64,000 nt of DNA from positions 716,001-780,000 of the forward strand of contig JABTUZ010000002.1 of assembly GCA_015075105.1 (NCBI GenBank), in the 5' to 3' direction. This stretch comes from Leptospiraceae bacterium (lineage in GTDB: Bacteria > Spirochaetota > Leptospiria > Leptospirales > Leptospiraceae). Numbering within the stretch: position 1 is the first letter of the stretch; every line of letters starts with the position of its first letter. The notes under the pieces are model-generated. The model was not told where the DNA came from and searched no databases. It saw nothing but the letters and a program-made list of their open reading frames with translations. This document shows positions 18,565 to 45,279 of this stretch, piece after piece. Made by a program: the position numbers and the translations under genes.

Positions 18565-21500
18565 TCTCTATACAATACAGAATAAATTTCTATTGGATTT
18601 GTTGCCTTGTCTTCTTTTACTTTTTGAATTTTTAAGATTTCTCCTGTTAGTTTCATAATAGACAATTCCCCATCCTTACTCACTACTACAGGTTTTCCTT
18701 CATTCAACCGAATTGCAGATACATCTTTCATATTAGAGTTTTGAAATTCGGTAGAGTTGCCATCATTAGAAATTTTAGTGATTTTTTTATCGGATACAAC
18801 ATAAATATCTTCATCTTCTGAAAAAATTGAGCGTATATTTTCTCCCGTTTTGAAGTATTCTGTAAATTTTCCATTATCTCGTAATTCAAAAAATCTACTT
18901 CCTTTCAAAACTCCTAGGCTGTCATTTTTAACGACTGCAATTTTAATATTTCCTTCACCTTTTATAGATTCACCTTTTGCAATTCTTTCAAGGTTGGAAT
19001 CATAAACACTCCATTCCAATTGAGTATTTTTTCCATAAAGAAAGAGTATCTTACCGTTTCCAAACAAATCCCATTGAATGTCTCTTTTAATACCAAGAGT
19101 TTTTGTATCTTTTCCGTTTAAGTTATAAGAAGTTATTTGAGTTTTCCCTTGTTTGTCAAGCGTGGTCAAAAAAGCCTTTGACTTTACTTTAAGTCCTGTG
19201 GGAGTTTTATCTTCTAAAGAATTGACTTGAAGAATTTTTCCGGTTTGAATATCAAGCTCATCTAAGGAGTTTTTAGATGCGGCAAAGATTCTTGTAGATG
19301 CCTCTAAGAAAATATAAGGCTCTTTTACCTCTCTTCTCCATGCAATAGATTTTGTGCCTGAGTCAATTGCAACAACTGAGTACCCATAATTAATAATCAT
19401 CTTACCGTTCACAAACACAGGAGTTGAAACAGGTTTCCCGGTAAGTGTATATTTCTGAAAAATTATAGAGTCGGTGCTTGCTTTTACTAATCTTGATTCT
19501 GCGAGTCTTGAATATTCGCTATTTGGAAATTTTTCAACTAATTCTCTGTTTAATTCAGATTGCAAATCGGCAATTTCTCCATCCGTACTTTTTGCATACA
19601 TTGCTTCTAAGATTCGAATATATGCGTACAAAGAAGCCGGAGACCTTTCAATTTTCAAAGCAGACTTGATAAACTTTTCTGCATTTGTGAAATCATTTTT
19701 TTGAAATGCGATATAAGAAAGGTAGTAAAAAGAATCCGAAAAGTCGGGATATTCTTTGGTCAATTTGGTAAAAATCTTTTCGGCTTCCTGGGTTGAGTTT
19801 TCGTTGAAGTAAAGAATTCCGATATTGTAAGGTGCAAGCTCTAATTCAGAATCTTTCTTCATGGCTTCTTCAAATTCTTCTTTTGCTTTCTGTTTATTGT
19901 TCTGCTTGTAATAAATAAGCCCTCGTGCGATATGCGATGCAGCAAATTCTGGATTCAACGAAACTGCACGATCTAAATATTTTAACGATTCACCATAATT
20001 ATTTTTTTCTAAATAAATCAAACCAAGTTGATATAAGCTATAATAAGATTCTGGTCTTGTTTTTAAAATGTCTCTAAACCCTTCTTCGGCTTTATCTGTT
20101 TGTCCTTTTCTAAAAAAGTAAGCATTGATAGCTTCTTGGATTTCGATTTTTCCTTCTTTTACTTTTTCAATCGAATCTTGTAAAATCCTTATCCCTTTTT
20201 CTTCTTCTCCAAGTGCAATATGGCACTCTGCAATTTTAATCAATATAGAAGGTCTCTCTATTTTTTTATAAGCCAGCATAAATGGCTCGATAGCTTCTCT
20301 GTAATTTTTAGAATTAAAAAGTTTGTTTCCTTTTTTCACTAAAGGCAGGACTTCACCAAACTTCATATTCCCTTGAATGATTTTTTTAGTTTCTTCAATT
20401 TCAGAAATTTCAGACTTTTGGTCTTTGGCTTTTTCTAAATAGGAAAGAGCCGATTGGAATTCTTCTTTTTTGTTTTTTTCCAGAGCCAGTTTGTAATACA
20501 GATTTCCGAGTCTATATCGAACAGTTTCGCTATCTGGAAATTTTTTTAGTAATTCTTTATAAATATCTTCGGCTTTGCCAAACTCTTTTTTGTCTTCATA
20601 AATTCTGCCGGTGATTATCCCGGAAAGTGGATTTCCTTTAGTGAGTGATTCTAATTTTTCTGTATAGATTTTTTGTTCTTTTTTATTTTGTGCCGAATAC
20701 AACCGAATGAGTCCCTGGATTGCGGGTATGTTTTCTTTATCTATTGCAAGGCTCGCCTTAAATGAATTTTCTGATTCTTTGTATTTTTTAGAAATAAATT
20801 CCGCCCTTCCGATTGCGTTAAAAACCATAGGCTCGTCTGATTTGATTTTTTTTGCTTTTAAAAATTCTTTTATCCCTTCTTCAATTTTTCCTTTTACAAG
20901 TAGTTTGTCTCCCTTATCAACCAAGATAGAAATTTCTGTAAGGGTCAATGCTTCCTTTGCTTGTTTTTCAAAAGATAATTTTGACGCTTCCAAGAACTCT
21001 CTTTTTGAATCTGAAAATCTTTTTTCATTCAAATAAAAAAATCCAAGGTTGAGTCTTGCCTGCCCAAATTTCGGATCTAATTCAATCGACTTAGTAAAAG
21101 ACAAAAGTGCTTTTTTGGAATCGCCCAGATTTTGATAACTCAAACCCAATTTATTATAGATTTGTGCATCCGACGGAAATAGCTCCACTGCTCTTTTTAG
21201 GATTTTAATTGCTTCTGAATTTTTTCCAGTTTTAATATAAATTGTCCCTAAGGCAGAATACCCTTCTATACTATTGGGATCCATTTGCAACGCTCTTTTA
21301 AAAGAGTCTTCCGCTTCTTTATCCTTTTTCAAAAGTATATAGGCGTTACCCAGAAAGATTAAAGGTGCAGAAGTTTTAGGAGAAAGATTCACAGCGTCTT
21401 GGAAAAATTCAAGAGACTTCTCATAATTTTTTTCTTTGATTGCCGAGTTTCCTTTTTCAATCAATTTCGCCAATTTGGTTGATTGAGAAGAATCTGAAGC

Positions 21501-37388: not shown

Positions 37389-38336
37389 TTAGAATGTTGG
37401 GTAAGTAGTAGGGCAAGTTCCAGATGCTGTTCCAAAAGATGAAGAAGTGGTAGCTGTAAAGCCTGCACCATATCCACACTTCAACGAAGCAGTAACAACA
37501 GCAGAAACAGAAGCCGCATCGGTTTTAGAAATACCATAAGTTGAATAAGAACCACCACTCATGCTTGTTAGAACTGATTTTAAAGCTGAGTCAGAGGCTA
37601 CAATAGCTGATGCACATGCAGGAACTGAAAAAGCAGCATTCATGAAAGCAAGATAGTTTGTAGCAGACAAGGTAGTCATTTCAGTTTGTCCATAAGGCTT
37701 TAAGAGTGCAATTGCAGCAGCAGTAAATCCTGTTACAGACATTGCAGTAGTCTGATAAGCTTTTAGATCCGCAAGGCTCACAGACATATCTGTAGAAACA
37801 CTTCCAACTCCAGAGTAATTTGTAAGAGCTTTTACTGCAGTGATACTTGCATCATCCTTACAAATCATAACAGCAGACGATTTTCCGCTCACAATTCTAT
37901 ACCCTGCCATTGAACATCCCTGGTTTCCACTTGTTAAAGAAGATTGAGCAGTTGTTATTGTAGCAGTTGTAGTGTTGGTTTTGCTCAAGGTTATTGCTGA
38001 ACTCAAGGTTGAACAACCAGTGGTTGCATCATAAACAGTTTTTAGACCATCAAACCCGGTATCAACAGCAGTTTTAGCTTCGCTTGGGCTTGTAGTGTAA
38101 AGTGATGTATTTAAAGTAGCTGCATTGCAACCGCCTTTTGGAATTGCAGAGCCTGTAGCAGAGTAGGTTGTGGTTCCAGTTGCACTCTTAGTGATAGTAG
38201 CACATTTACCGCTTGTTTGATCCAAGAGATAAAACATTAGTGCTGAATTGTTGTCATCCTCTTTCTTTTTTGCACAATTTACGAAAAGACCAAGAGCCAA
38301 TGCAATTGCTGCAATACTTATTAAATTTTTATTCAT
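37389..38336 (-). CDS. Ser/Thr/Ala-rich lipoprotein with eight further cysteines
   Basis: 315 residues. The signal peptide ends in LGLFVNCAKKK, a lipobox. The mature part is low-complexity (Thr, Ser, Ala) and holds eight other Cys (GKCAT, GGCNA, TGCST, QGCSM, ICKDD, PACAS, LKCGY, GTCPT), enough for four disulfides. No family is recognised. Location is probably the outer membrane surface. The upstream gap (38337-38478) is T-rich; the 231-bp repeat lies behind it. Confidence 0.78.
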   Translation of the reverse strand: MNKNLISIAAIALALGLFVNCAKKKEDDNNSALMFYLLDQTSGKCATITKSATGTTTYSATGSAIPKGGCNAATLNTSLYTTSPSEAKTAVDTGFDGLKTVYDATTGCSTLSSAITLSKTNTTTATITTAQSSLTSGNQGCSMAGYRIVSGKSSAVMICKDDASITAVKALTNYSGVGSVSTDMSVSLADLKAYQTTAMSVTGFTAAAIALLKPYGQTEMTTLSATNYLAFMNAAFSVPACASAIVASDSALKSVLTSMSGGSYSTYGISKTDAASVSAVVTASLKCGYGAGFTATTSSSFGTASGTCPTTYPTF

Positions 38337-38478
38337 TTTTAATCCCCTTTTTTAGATTTAGCTTTATTCTTAGTTTTCTCTTTTTTTTGTCAATATCTTT
38401 TACAGTATTTTTTTTAGCTTTTTATTTTTGTTTTACTTATATTATGTCTCATTAGCTTAGATTGTTTTGACCGACAAT

Positions 38479-38722
38479 GTGGGATCTCCAATTCGGAGGA
38501 CTGATGACGGAGGTCTGAGGTCGGGGGAATAGTGTAGGTGAGAATCTTTTGTAAATAGGTTTATCTTTTAGGATGAGGTTTTGAGCTTTAGTAGAGTTTT
38601 TGAAATTTCGTATTTAGTGCAGATTTTACACTTTTCGTGTGAAAATGTGGGATCTCCAATTTTTTAGAGGATTTCAAAAGATTTCGTATTTAGTGCAGAT
38701 TGGGGATTTTTTCTGTAAAACT
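38479..38722 (+). repeat. 231-bp repeat unit upstream of the phasin gene
   Basis: The copy starts at GTGGGATCTCCAATTCGGAGG and carries the TTTATCTTTTAGGATGAGG and TTGAGCTTTAGTAGAG blocks seen at the right end. A second GTGGGATCTCC (38647) is followed by a leader, AGTGCAGATT then TTTTTCTGTAAAACT. The leader is nearly the same as the one in front of both DUF1564 genes. With the T-rich part before it and the promoter after it, this fills the 503-bp gap 38337-38839; no protein gene is seen there. Confidence 0.85.
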
Positions 38723-38773: not shown

Positions 38774-38820
38774 TTGACTAATTTTGTGCATTGCACAAAT
38801 TTGATTTAGTGCGATGCACT
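38774..38820 (+). promoter_or_regulatory. Promoter with two palindromic operator-like sites before the phasin gene
   Basis: A TTGACT -35-like box (38774-38779) is followed by the perfect palindrome TTGTGCA-T-TGCACAA (38784-38798) in the spacer. AGTGC-GAT-GCACT (38808-38820) lies near the expected transcription start. Two dyads at these positions suggest a repressor. In proteobacteria the PhaR regulator binds TGC-rich dyads before phasin genes; the parallel is inference. The -10 box is weak. Confidence 0.5.
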
Positions 38821-38839
38821 ATTTGAAAGGAGAATATAA

Positions 38840-39217: not shown

Positions 39218-39250
39218 GGGGGCAATTTTGCCCCCTCTTTCTTTTTTTAA
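39218..39250 (+). terminator. Rho-independent terminator after the phasin gene
   Basis: GGGGGCA (39218-39224) and TGCCCCC (39229-39235) form a GC-rich hairpin with a 4-base loop. A T-tract (TCTTTCTTTTTTT) follows, 15 bp after the stop codon. Confidence 0.92.
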
Positions 39251-43042: not shown

Positions 43043-44110
43043 TTAAAACTCCCTCTCGATTGTTTCGATTTGAACATTTGTTAAATCATAAACATTGTAA
43101 ACAAAAATATCTAATTCGGTCATGTCGATAATCTCACAGCATCGATTATAAATATCTTTGAATTTAATATGCTGGTTATTTTCAATAATTGGCAATGGCA
43201 AAGATTCAATATGAGAGCGTAAAATCTTTTTTGAATGAAACATTTTCCTGTAAATAAAACTATATAACTTTGAATTAAAAAGACAAACAATAGTTTCGAT
43301 TGGATAGTCAATTTTTGGAATAAACAAATTCGCACTGTTAAGCAATAATCTGCCTTGATTGTCGAAAGCACAGATAATTCTATCGTTAATAAATCTATAT
43401 GTGATTTTGGGTTGACGATATTTCTCAACTGACGCTATTTGCTGATACCGTTCTGGATGAAACTCAATAAAACATTCAGCAGGAAGAAAACGGAAAGGGT
43501 CTATATCCTTCCCTCTGTATATAGGTTCCATATTCTTCTTGCTTTTTGTTTTTGATATATGTTTAGCATTATTGCCTGTTACAATGCCAAGTGCAAATTC
43601 TGCATTATTTTTTAATGTTAAATATTTTCGAGAGAAAACATGGGAAAGTATTTCTTTCTCTAAAGAATTCGCTGTAGCTTGAATTATATAATCTGGAGGT
43701 GAAATTTCTTTATGATTAAGATGATACACTTGCTCGCTATTAAATATCTCAATAGAATCCGAAATTATCTCGTTACAGAATGTGAATCGTATAGCCTCAG
43801 ATACTACACCTTGAAATGCGTTTCCTAACAAGTCAATTTTGATTGCTCTATTTTTAGATAGTAAAAATTTGCGAATATTTTTATGTGTTCCAACATTTAA
43901 AATTGAATGAGGTAAAAAAAAGGTTAGTGTTCCTTTGGAAGTAAGGTTATTGATGCAGTTATATAATGCTATTGAGAATGATTCCGATGTAGATATTTCA
44001 TCATACATTTTAATGAGTGTTTCTTTTTCTTTAAAGTCAAGTTTACTTCCCCACGGCGGGTTTGTGACAATATTATCATAGCATATTTGATTATCTGAAA
44101 TGTCAAACAA
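43043..44110 (-). pseudogene. N6-adenine DNA methylase/restriction enzyme, C-terminal fragment cut by IS3
   Basis: 355 residues remain. NIVTNPPWGSK is catalytic motif IV (NPPW) of gamma-class N6-adenine methylases of the Eco57I/TaqI type. A target-recognition-like region follows (GIVTGNNAKHI, PIYRGKDIDPFRF, LFNSKLYSFIYRK) as in TaqI-like specificity domains. The AdoMet-binding motif I, which should precede NPPW, is absent. The open frame continues upstream (EISLFD) into the IS end, so the listed TTG start is not a true start. The N-terminal part appears on the far side of the IS at 45331. Confidence 0.82.
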
Positions 44111-44152: not shown

Positions 44153-44932
44153 TCATATTTTTTGTTTATTTTTAAATTGCAGAGGAGATAGTCCTCCTAA
44201 AGCTGAATGAGGTCTGATTGAATTGTACCGATCAATAAATTGAAAAATACTTTTGGCTGCTTCAATTTTATCAGCATAACAGGAGATATTTATCTCTTGA
44301 TACTTGATAGTTTTATTAAAAGATTCTGCGTGTGCATTTTCATATGCATTACCAAGACACATTGAAATTTGTATTTTGGAATTGTTCAGAAGTTCTATAT
44401 ATTCATGCGAACAATATCTTCTATCAGAATCAGTATGATGAATGTAACCTTCGAGACTTCCTCTGTTCATGAGAGCCGACTCAAATGCAGACCTGACAAG
44501 TTCACTATTAAGTTTATCAGAAACAGCTCGTCCGATGACCTCTCTGTTTTCCATATCCATTAGTGATGCCAGATAATGATTTTTCCCCTGAACATCAAAA
44601 AAAGTAACATCACCAACTATTACTCGTGCATGATTAATTGACTTGTCCTTAAGAAGATTTGGATATTTTTTCAGGTTATGTTTTGAATCCGTGGTCGCAT
44701 GATGATAAGCCCTCTTCGGACTGCATTTTAAAAGGTTTTCATGCATGATCCTGTAAACTCGCTTATGATTGATTTTCATATCATTTCTCAGAAAATAAGT
44801 GACAGACCTGTAACCTGATTGAGGCATTAAATCCAGATATGCTTCAATCTTTTCTATTAGTTGCTTATCCTCCTGTTTTCTTTTAATCTTTGCATCCGAT
44901 TGGTAATAAAAGGAAGAGATACTGATCTCCAA
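44153..44932 (-). CDS. IS3-family transposase OrfB (DDE integrase domain)
   Basis: 259 residues in the listed frame, open further upstream in the same frame (ARLEAKREII, KYLAPEFGIVKSC) to the slippery run at 45024-45031. HTH_21-like block SGYRSVTYFLR, then the rve/DDE domain: VGDVTFFDV (Asp), HHTDSDRRY (Asp) and ENAHAESFNKTIK (Glu), ending RPHSALGGLSPLQF. All three catalytic residues are present, so it is probably active. It is made as an OrfAB fusion by -1 frameshifting. Confidence 0.93.
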   Translation of the reverse strand: MEISISSFYYQSDAKIKRKQEDKQLIEKIEAYLDLMPQSGYRSVTYFLRNDMKINHKRVYRIMHENLLKCSPKRAYHHATTDSKHNLKKYPNLLKDKSINHARVIVGDVTFFDVQGKNHYLASLMDMENREVIGRAVSDKLNSELVRSAFESALMNRGSLEGYIHHTDSDRRYCSHEYIELLNNSKIQISMCLGNAYENAHAESFNKTIKYQEINISCYADKIEAAKSIFQFIDRYNSIRPHSALGGLSPLQFKNKQKI

Positions 44933-44946
44933 AGCTTTACAGCTTT

Positions 44947-45279
44947 TTACAATTCCAAATTCTGGTGCGAGATACTTCCTGATAATTTCTCTTTTTGCTT
45001 CCAGTCTTGCAGATATTTTTGGGCTTTTTTTAAAATGTGATTATCTAACGCAAGGTTGGCAAGTGCACCTTCCAATTCTGCGACTCGTTTCCTTAAAGCA
45101 AATTCGGTTTGATTATTTTGTTCAAACTTTCCTGTATCTATCTCATTTCTCCAATTTCGGATTGTTTGAGGATTTACCTTTTCCCTTTGAGCTATTTGCG
45201 AAACGGAACTCTGCCCGGACAAAATTTCCATTACTATTTTTTCCTTAAATTCTTTGCCATAGTTATTTCTTCTTATCAT
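44947..45279 (-). CDS. IS3-family transposase OrfA (HTH protein)
   Basis: 110 residues. KEKIVMEILSGQSSVSQIAQ and VNPQTIRNWRNEID form the helix-turn-helix that binds the inverted repeats; a leucine-zipper-like helix follows (RVAELEGALANLALD). The run of seven T on the plus strand at 45025-45031 (A7G in the message, TTA-AAA-AAA-GCC) is a good -1 slip site leading into OrfB. Confidence 0.92.
   Translation of the reverse strand: MIRRNNYGKEFKEKIVMEILSGQSSVSQIAQREKVNPQTIRNWRNEIDTGKFEQNNQTEFALRKRVAELEGALANLALDNHILKKAQKYLQDWKQKEKLSGSISHQNLEL

Follow-up and report, generated by a model that had tools for sequence, protein, structure and literature searches.

The window analysed here, that is, the whole 64 kb stretch of DNA, carries a gene for a phasin-related protein, which is preceded by a TTGACT hexamer, two palindromic dyads and a ribosome-binding site (Table 1). 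The protein scored 83.6 bits with the NCBIfam model NF047773 (phas_rel_Lepto, 'phasin-related'), over the cut-off of 35, and did not reach the classical Pfam phasin model PF05597 (12.5 bits, E 0.16); its predicted structure is all-helical at low confidence (pLDDT 65). Because a terminator-like hairpin lies 3' of the gene, it probably forms a single-gene unit, and the next gene encodes a PfkB-type sugar kinase. A lipoprotein-like gene (window 37389-38336, - strand), with a partial LipL36 match of 52.4 bits (cut-off 400), is divergent from the phasin gene.

Table 1. Features at the phasin promoter (window positions) and candidate sites elsewhere in this genome (G000; C1 and C2 positions)
Feature	Coordinates	Strand	Remarks
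Candidate -35 hexamer, TTGACT	38774..38779	+	from sequence
Candidate PhaR box 1, TTGTGCATTGCACAA	38784..38798	.	in expected -35/-10 spacer
Candidate PhaR box 2, TAGTGCGATGCACTA	38807..38821	.	core TGCRNYGCA
Ribosome-binding site, AAAGGAG	38826..38832	+	from sequence; 7 bp 5' of ATG (38840)
Phasin-related protein gene, 120 aa	38840..39202	+	regulated gene in the reading proposed here
Intrinsic-terminator-like hairpin with T-rich tail	39218..39245	+	7-pair stem, 3' of phasin gene
Two WTRTGCRNYGCAYWW sites	5' of gene at C2:178566		before second phasin-like gene (84 aa)
One WTRTGCRNYGCAYWW site	C2:517601		before phaR (ATG at 517650)
PhaR gene, 183 aa	C2:517650-518201		single PhaR gene detected in the genome
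Two WTRTGCRNYGCAYWW sites	C1:226063 and 226097		before lytic transglycosylase gene
Small SLT-domain protein gene	C1:225381-226111 (L013 3382-4112)		two candidate PhaR boxes, 34 bp apart
One WTRTGCRNYGCAYWW site	C2:202019		inside 7TM sensor/cyclase-like protein gene, near its start
One WTRTGCRNYGCAYWW site	C1:1726886		inside gene of no assigned function

The initial annotation had described two GTGC/GCAC-type dyads just after TTGACT, and both are present within 38774-38821. The first, TTGTGCATTGCACAA, is a perfect palindrome about a central T and starts four bases 3' of TTGACT, and the second, AGTGCGATGCACT at 38808-38820, is contained in TAGTGCGATGCACTA. Both boxes contain the core TGCRNYGCA, with 23 bp from start to start; the two boxes stand as first described, except that AGTGCG follows the first 15-mer after 9 bases and not after the ten given. 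At 39 of the 62 boxed phasin-like genes in PhaR-bearing genomes of the class, the 18 bp preceding the first dyad hold a TTGACA-like hexamer (at most one mismatch), with a gap of 0-5 bp (commonest 2), whereas 100 permuted hexamers gave a mean of 4.1 and a maximum of 28 in the same test. Such a hexamer precedes the first box at phaR in 2 of 24 cases, and this layout therefore belongs to phasin promoters. At the window promoter no consensus -10 was found and a strict scan gave no sigma-70 site, which counts against the hexamer as a -35; when the best -35/-10 pair was sought without constraint, it overlapped a dyad in 47 of 66 genes, but at the window gene the best pair lay elsewhere.

The scan also reports a TTTGTGCATTGCACAAA stem followed by a T-containing tail, so that box 1 could be thought of as an RNA hairpin, either an attenuator or a terminator, and not as a protein site. 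If TTGACT is the -35, however, box 1 precedes the transcription start, and the R-N-Y conservation of the core and the 19-23 bp pairing of the boxes suit dimer sites rather than a terminator, which makes an RNA element extremely improbable.

GTGCRNYGCAC occurs exactly twice in the window, both times at the phasin promoter, against a mean of 0.005 per shuffle in 200 dinucleotide shuffles, none of which held two or more; with up to one mismatch there are 4 matches against 0.77 expected, and four or more were reached in 0 of 100 shuffles. The core TGCRNYGCA is found 7 times in the window, compared with 1.21 per shuffle and 0-1 for each of five permuted counterparts. Genome-wide, WTRTGCRNYGCAYWW gave 7 forward and 5 reverse matches at 8 distinct places, while its reversed control gave none; box 2 is not among these places, because WTRTGCRNYGCAYWW is stricter and box 2 does not fit it. 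The motif is thus rare in the genome, and it recurs before phaR and before two further phasin-like genes, one of which (C1:289716) has one core match upstream. A fourth phasin-like gene (C2:520260, downstream of phaR) has no box upstream, which counts against the proposal, and the two sites inside genes are weaker and may be chance matches. We regard the double dyad as genuine and a tandem PhaR operator as its most likely identity.

A dispersed repeat is also present in several copies (window 38473-38720; about 592-726, - strand; L016 6690-7060); it contains GTGGGATCTCC (or GTGGGAACTCC) together with segments of the TTTAGTGCAGATTTTGCACTTTTCGTGC type and is not a PhaR box. The initial annotation had ascribed to it a dyad similar in type to those of the operator and had suggested that one protein might bind both, and neither idea was upheld: AGTGCA-N5-TGCACT occurs in some copies, TGCRNYGCA in none of the copies listed, and because its half-sites are spaced differently, the repeat is not supported as a PhaR target. 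It was also rejected as a second PhaR site; the two copies nearest to the phasin gene have no intact second arm. Farther along the window, two adjoining frames (44153-45279, - strand) resemble by eye an IS3-type transposase pair, namely a helix-turn-helix protein and an integrase, and a methyltransferase-like frame, also assigned by eye (43043-44110), adjoins them.

The regulator that would read these boxes, a PhaR homologue proposed on the analogy of phasin genes elsewhere, is encoded by a single detected gene. Its N-terminal PHB_acc_N DNA-binding domain (PF07879) scored 80.8-82.3 bits, above the cut-off of 25. With the full-length equivalog model TIGR01848 (cut-off 109.45), it reached 73.8 bits and the PhaR proteins of five relatives 65.6-79.2 bits; as the cut-off is not reached, the protein is called PhaR-type and not an equivalog.

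PhaR was detected in 31 of the 48 genomes of the class set, which includes this genome and contains no named Leptospira genomes, and the phasin-related domain in 41 of the 48, with 114 matches. Upstream boxes were examined for 95 of these matches, the other 19 being three at contig edges, frame pieces already counted, PhaR's own tails, sub-cut-off matches and a few weak ones. In PhaR-bearing genomes, the core lies within 200 bp upstream of 62 of 75 phasin-like genes, in 87 copies, whereas five permuted dyads gave 2, 0, 0, 1 and 0 at the same genes; the remaining 13 genes have no box, which counts against the proposal. At least one phasin-like gene is boxed in each of the 29 PhaR-bearing genomes represented, and of 25 pairs of neighbouring phasin boxes, 21 have a distance of 19-23 bp. 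The phaR gene itself carries the core upstream in 24 of 31 cases (permuted dyads, 0 of 31), and one of the seven boxless phaR genes has only 23 bp of upstream DNA. The comparison of relatives, in short, found the dyads conserved before phasin-like genes.

Genomes without detected PhaR have the core upstream of 4 of 20 phasin-like genes (Fisher's test of 62/13 versus 4/16, p = 3e-7, with kinship ignored). These four genes all come from the incomplete genomes G020, G040 and G043 (78, 54 and 84% complete), whose assemblies may merely lack the PhaR gene, and the other seven genomes without detected PhaR, among them the 75% complete G023, have 0 of 15 phasin-like genes boxed. A natural control is formed by G026-G029 (one genus), G023 and G025, all of the window's own family, in which no PhaR was detected and 0 of 14 phasin-like genes are boxed; the orthologues of the window phasin from G023, G025, G026 and G027 are 67-78% identical to it. 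Across the phylum, PhaR occurs in 39 of 392 genomes, 31 of 48 inside the class and 8 of 344 outside. The eight outside carriers of the PhaR-type DNA-binding domain (G049, G060, G071, G088, G106, G125, G129 and G153) mostly have lower scores. A contig scan gave 7 loci, all from Leptospiraceae or Leptospirales MAGs and none from the genus Leptospira.

Palindromes of the GTGC/GCAC general type serve several regulator families, and the dyads might accordingly be sites of another regulator with this preference. Against such a regulator speak the boxes at phaR itself, their absence from all 15 phasin genes of the seven genomes without PhaR and the exact match of box 1 to the measured PhaR consensus, so that we find it very unlikely. 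By contrast, the dedicated PhaR-like repressor suggested at the outset is supported, as far as sequence comparison goes, by the PhaR homologue, the rare motif and the class-wide conservation, and the assignment of the boxes as a PhaR operator is strong.

Small lytic transglycosylases are an unexpected third conserved target of the candidate PhaR boxes. Paired sites were seen before small SLT-domain proteins in four genomes, and a profile built from these four proteins and run on the 48 class genomes gave 34 matches in 29 of them. The core was found in the upstream region at 26 of the 30 loci examined (permuted dyads, 0, 1, 0, 0 and 0); since the four founders had been picked for their boxes, the figure without them is 22 of 26. 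The scanned region comprised 250 bp before the open frame up to the match, which is always over 200 bp and is short at two contig edges. No core was found at the loci of G045, of G015, of G042, which lies at a contig edge, and of G033, where an 808-aa frame is weakly matched. In 14 of 18 cases the paired sites are separated by 29-34 bp, a wider spacing than at phasins. The transglycosylase is present in 25 of 31 PhaR-bearing genomes versus 4 of 17 others (p = 1.7e-4, with kinship ignored). Inspection by eye of 30 more sites outside this genome revealed no target that recurs across genera, except the transglycosylase, among the matches listed; the listing of such orphan sites covers genomes up to G031, with later ones (family f6 among them) left out, and several weaker sites inside genes of other genomes are probably due to chance. 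In G017 and G018 (one genus; L194 and L195), a PhaR-box-like site lies 131 bp upstream of a gene that looks by eye like an outer-membrane-protein gene.

The C-terminal half of PhaR gives no match to a Pfam tail domain of PhaR, which, like the TIGR01848 score below its cut-off, counts against the proposal. PF05233, which we take to be the Pfam C-terminal PHB_acc domain of classical PhaR, is absent from the matches of six class PhaR proteins (at E up to 0.01 for that of this genome and up to 1 for those of five relatives), and the C-terminal parts of some relatives' PhaR give weak phasin-like matches instead. One relative's tail scored 31.7 bits with NF047773 (cut-off 35), and another's 20.9 bits with the granule-protein model TIGR01837; PhaR of this genome matched neither model at E 0.01. 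When a profile of 31 PhaR C-terminal parts was compared with one of 83 phasin-like proteins, the two aligned at a probability of 95.1 (E 3.2e-8), against 3.3 for the reversed-tail control. There is thus moderate evidence, drawn from these profiles, that the PhaR tail and the phasins share ancestry, and helical sequence may add to the similarity. A PDB sequence search with PhaR returned a single match at E 0.29, which is of no use.

Among the 48 genomes, the PHA synthase model PF07167 matches one, G023, in which no PhaR was detected, and none of the 31 that bear PhaR, this one included. TIGR01836 (cut-off 365.3) is over its cut-off in 0 of the 48 genomes. G023, which is 75% complete, carries a class III-like PHA synthase on C20 (L256 1363-2403) that scored 272.9-273.7 bits, below the cut-off; because it reached 273.7 bits, the search does see class III-like synthases. 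The best stretches after it scored 76.8 bits (G045) and, in this genome, 26.5 bits, and among 14 control genomes there was one match, in Caulobacter, below the cut-off. The idea that a wax-ester or triglyceride synthase supplies the hydrophobic surface was rejected: PF03007 matches weakly in 2 of 48 genomes and not in this one, but it matched 0 of the 14 controls as well, so that its sensitivity is not demonstrated.

Phasins and PhaR usually accompany PHA, and it is conceivable that the same operator belongs to an ordinary PhaR-phasin-PHA circuit, with PHA made by a synthase that has diverged beyond the reach of the models. Weak scores with the synthase models are seen for many alpha/beta hydrolases of the class; TIGR01836 is the best NCBIfam match of a 355-aa hydrolase of the PhaR-bearing G045 (80.0 bits over the whole frame), and the best candidate of this genome, a 425-aa frame at C2:356938, obtains 41.4 bits with it. 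These two whole-frame scores make the alternative slightly more likely, and that of G045 speaks against our own reading. These proteins, however, score higher as general hydrolases in Pfam PF00561 (81.0 bits for that of G045 and 71.5 bits for the 425-aa frame), and the second candidate of this genome likewise belongs with the general hydrolases (89.4 bits). The genome has a completeness of 99.97%, and the one PF07167 match and the one high TIGR01836 score both fall in G023, where PhaR was not detected, which further argues against a hidden synthase. We therefore regard a divergent synthase as unlikely, though worth keeping in mind. The initial analogy with PhaR on phasin genes holds for the operator, while its PHA-granule mechanism does not transfer directly to bacteria in which no PHA synthase was recognised.

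As a whole, the observations are best explained by dyads that form a tandem PhaR operator, through which the phasin gene would be repressed until PhaR is released at a hydrophobic surface that is probably not PHA; we give this reading a probability of about 0.87. PhaR would occupy box 1 within the promoter spacer and, roughly two helical turns further along the same face of the DNA, box 2, and would block transcription of the phasin-related gene. It would exclude polymerase, as box 1 occupies the expected -35/-10 spacer and box 2 falls close to where transcription should start, and it would also control its own gene and the small lytic transglycosylase. Attraction of the phasin-like C-terminal half of PhaR to a hydrophobic surface would take the repressor off its operator; phasin would then be produced and cover the surface, after which PhaR would bind the DNA again. 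Release most likely proceeds as in classical PhaR, from which, together with the phasin-like tail, the role of a hydrophobic surface is taken. Since no PHA synthase was recognised, this surface is unlikely to be a PHA granule; our guess is an inclusion derived from fatty acids or an inner membrane in an altered state. Repression rather than activation is uncertain, because PhaR activates some genes in other bacteria, according to excerpts of PMC12849132.

With no synthase over the cut-off in PhaR-bearing genomes and a phasin-like PhaR tail, this looks like a PhaR circuit without PHA, and the PHA-free sensing step would rest on the non-recognition of a synthase. A broader and clearly tentative proposal, which we would not yet favour, is that PhaR has been uncoupled from PHA throughout the class: its DNA-binding head and phasin-like tail might sense some other hydrophobic surface, for instance a disturbed inner membrane or inclusions derived from fatty acids, and induce amphipathic coat proteins along with a lytic transglycosylase.

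Operators of this kind are known; the setting is new, as no PHA synthase was recognised, the tail of PhaR resembles phasins and a lytic transglycosylase is a conserved target. In the titles and abstract openings of the matches listed for Leptospira or spirochaete phasin, PHA or PhaR, and for transglycosylase with phasin, such a circuit is undescribed, and the text of a phasin review (PMC5658603) contains neither 'spiroch' nor 'Leptospira'. PhaR is known as a storage-polyester sensor. A highly conserved circuit of PhaR, phasin and transglycosylase without recognisable synthase would point either to another, perhaps older, role of phasins and PhaR at hydrophobic surfaces or to a polymer from an unrecognised enzyme; if the PHA-uncoupled version is true, an envelope or lipid-surface response has been assembled from storage-granule parts. 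As well, the boxes offer a ready list of candidate regulated genes in uncultured or little-studied spirochaetes.

Among known systems, the granule-associated phasins of TIGR01837 and PF05597, which we take to be of the PhaF-PhaI type, share a weak profile similarity with the phasin-like protein and with some relatives' PhaR tails; they differ in that the scores here are far below the curated cut-offs and that there is no recognised synthase partner.

For PhaR of R. eutropha, the excerpted part of PMC12849132 gives a deduced 17-mer, YTKNTGCRNYGCANMAR, which is fitted in full by 38783-38799 (box 1), the sole such place in the window. The same excerpts describe degenerate palindromes with a single central base and sites around -35 and -10, which are common to both systems, whereas PHB granules, three sites per phasin promoter and activation of phaP3 set R. 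eutropha apart. Autoregulation is described there (PMC3570403, in part), and here phaR is also boxed. In S. meliloti, as far as the excerpts of PMC12542648 go, the phaP1 and phaP2 promoters have two palindromes each, flanking the -35, and one PhaR site contains TTGTGCGGCGCACAA, which recurs in several class genomes. PhaR (AniA) of that species has in common with the present system a YGCRNYGCR-core palindrome, AT-rich arms and paired copies at phasin promoters, and phasins are among its most strongly repressed targets (PMC12542648, same excerpts). It is titrated by PHB there, whereas here no synthase was recognised and the PhaR tail is phasin-like.

A further comparison is with B. diazoefficiens PhaR, whose consensus TGCRNYGCASMA was obtained from footprints and gel-shifted promoters and which bound the phaP and phaR promoters in gel shifts, according to the part of PMC6201568 available. 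Box 1 agrees with TGCRNYGCASMA at 12 of 12 positions and box 2 has one mismatch, and elsewhere in the window the consensus occurs once, at 19933. Unlike here, the B. diazoefficiens regulon is described in that part of PMC6201568 as large and metabolic, including depolymerases and central carbon genes, while the recurring targets of the candidate boxes in this class are phasins, phaR and one lytic transglycosylase.
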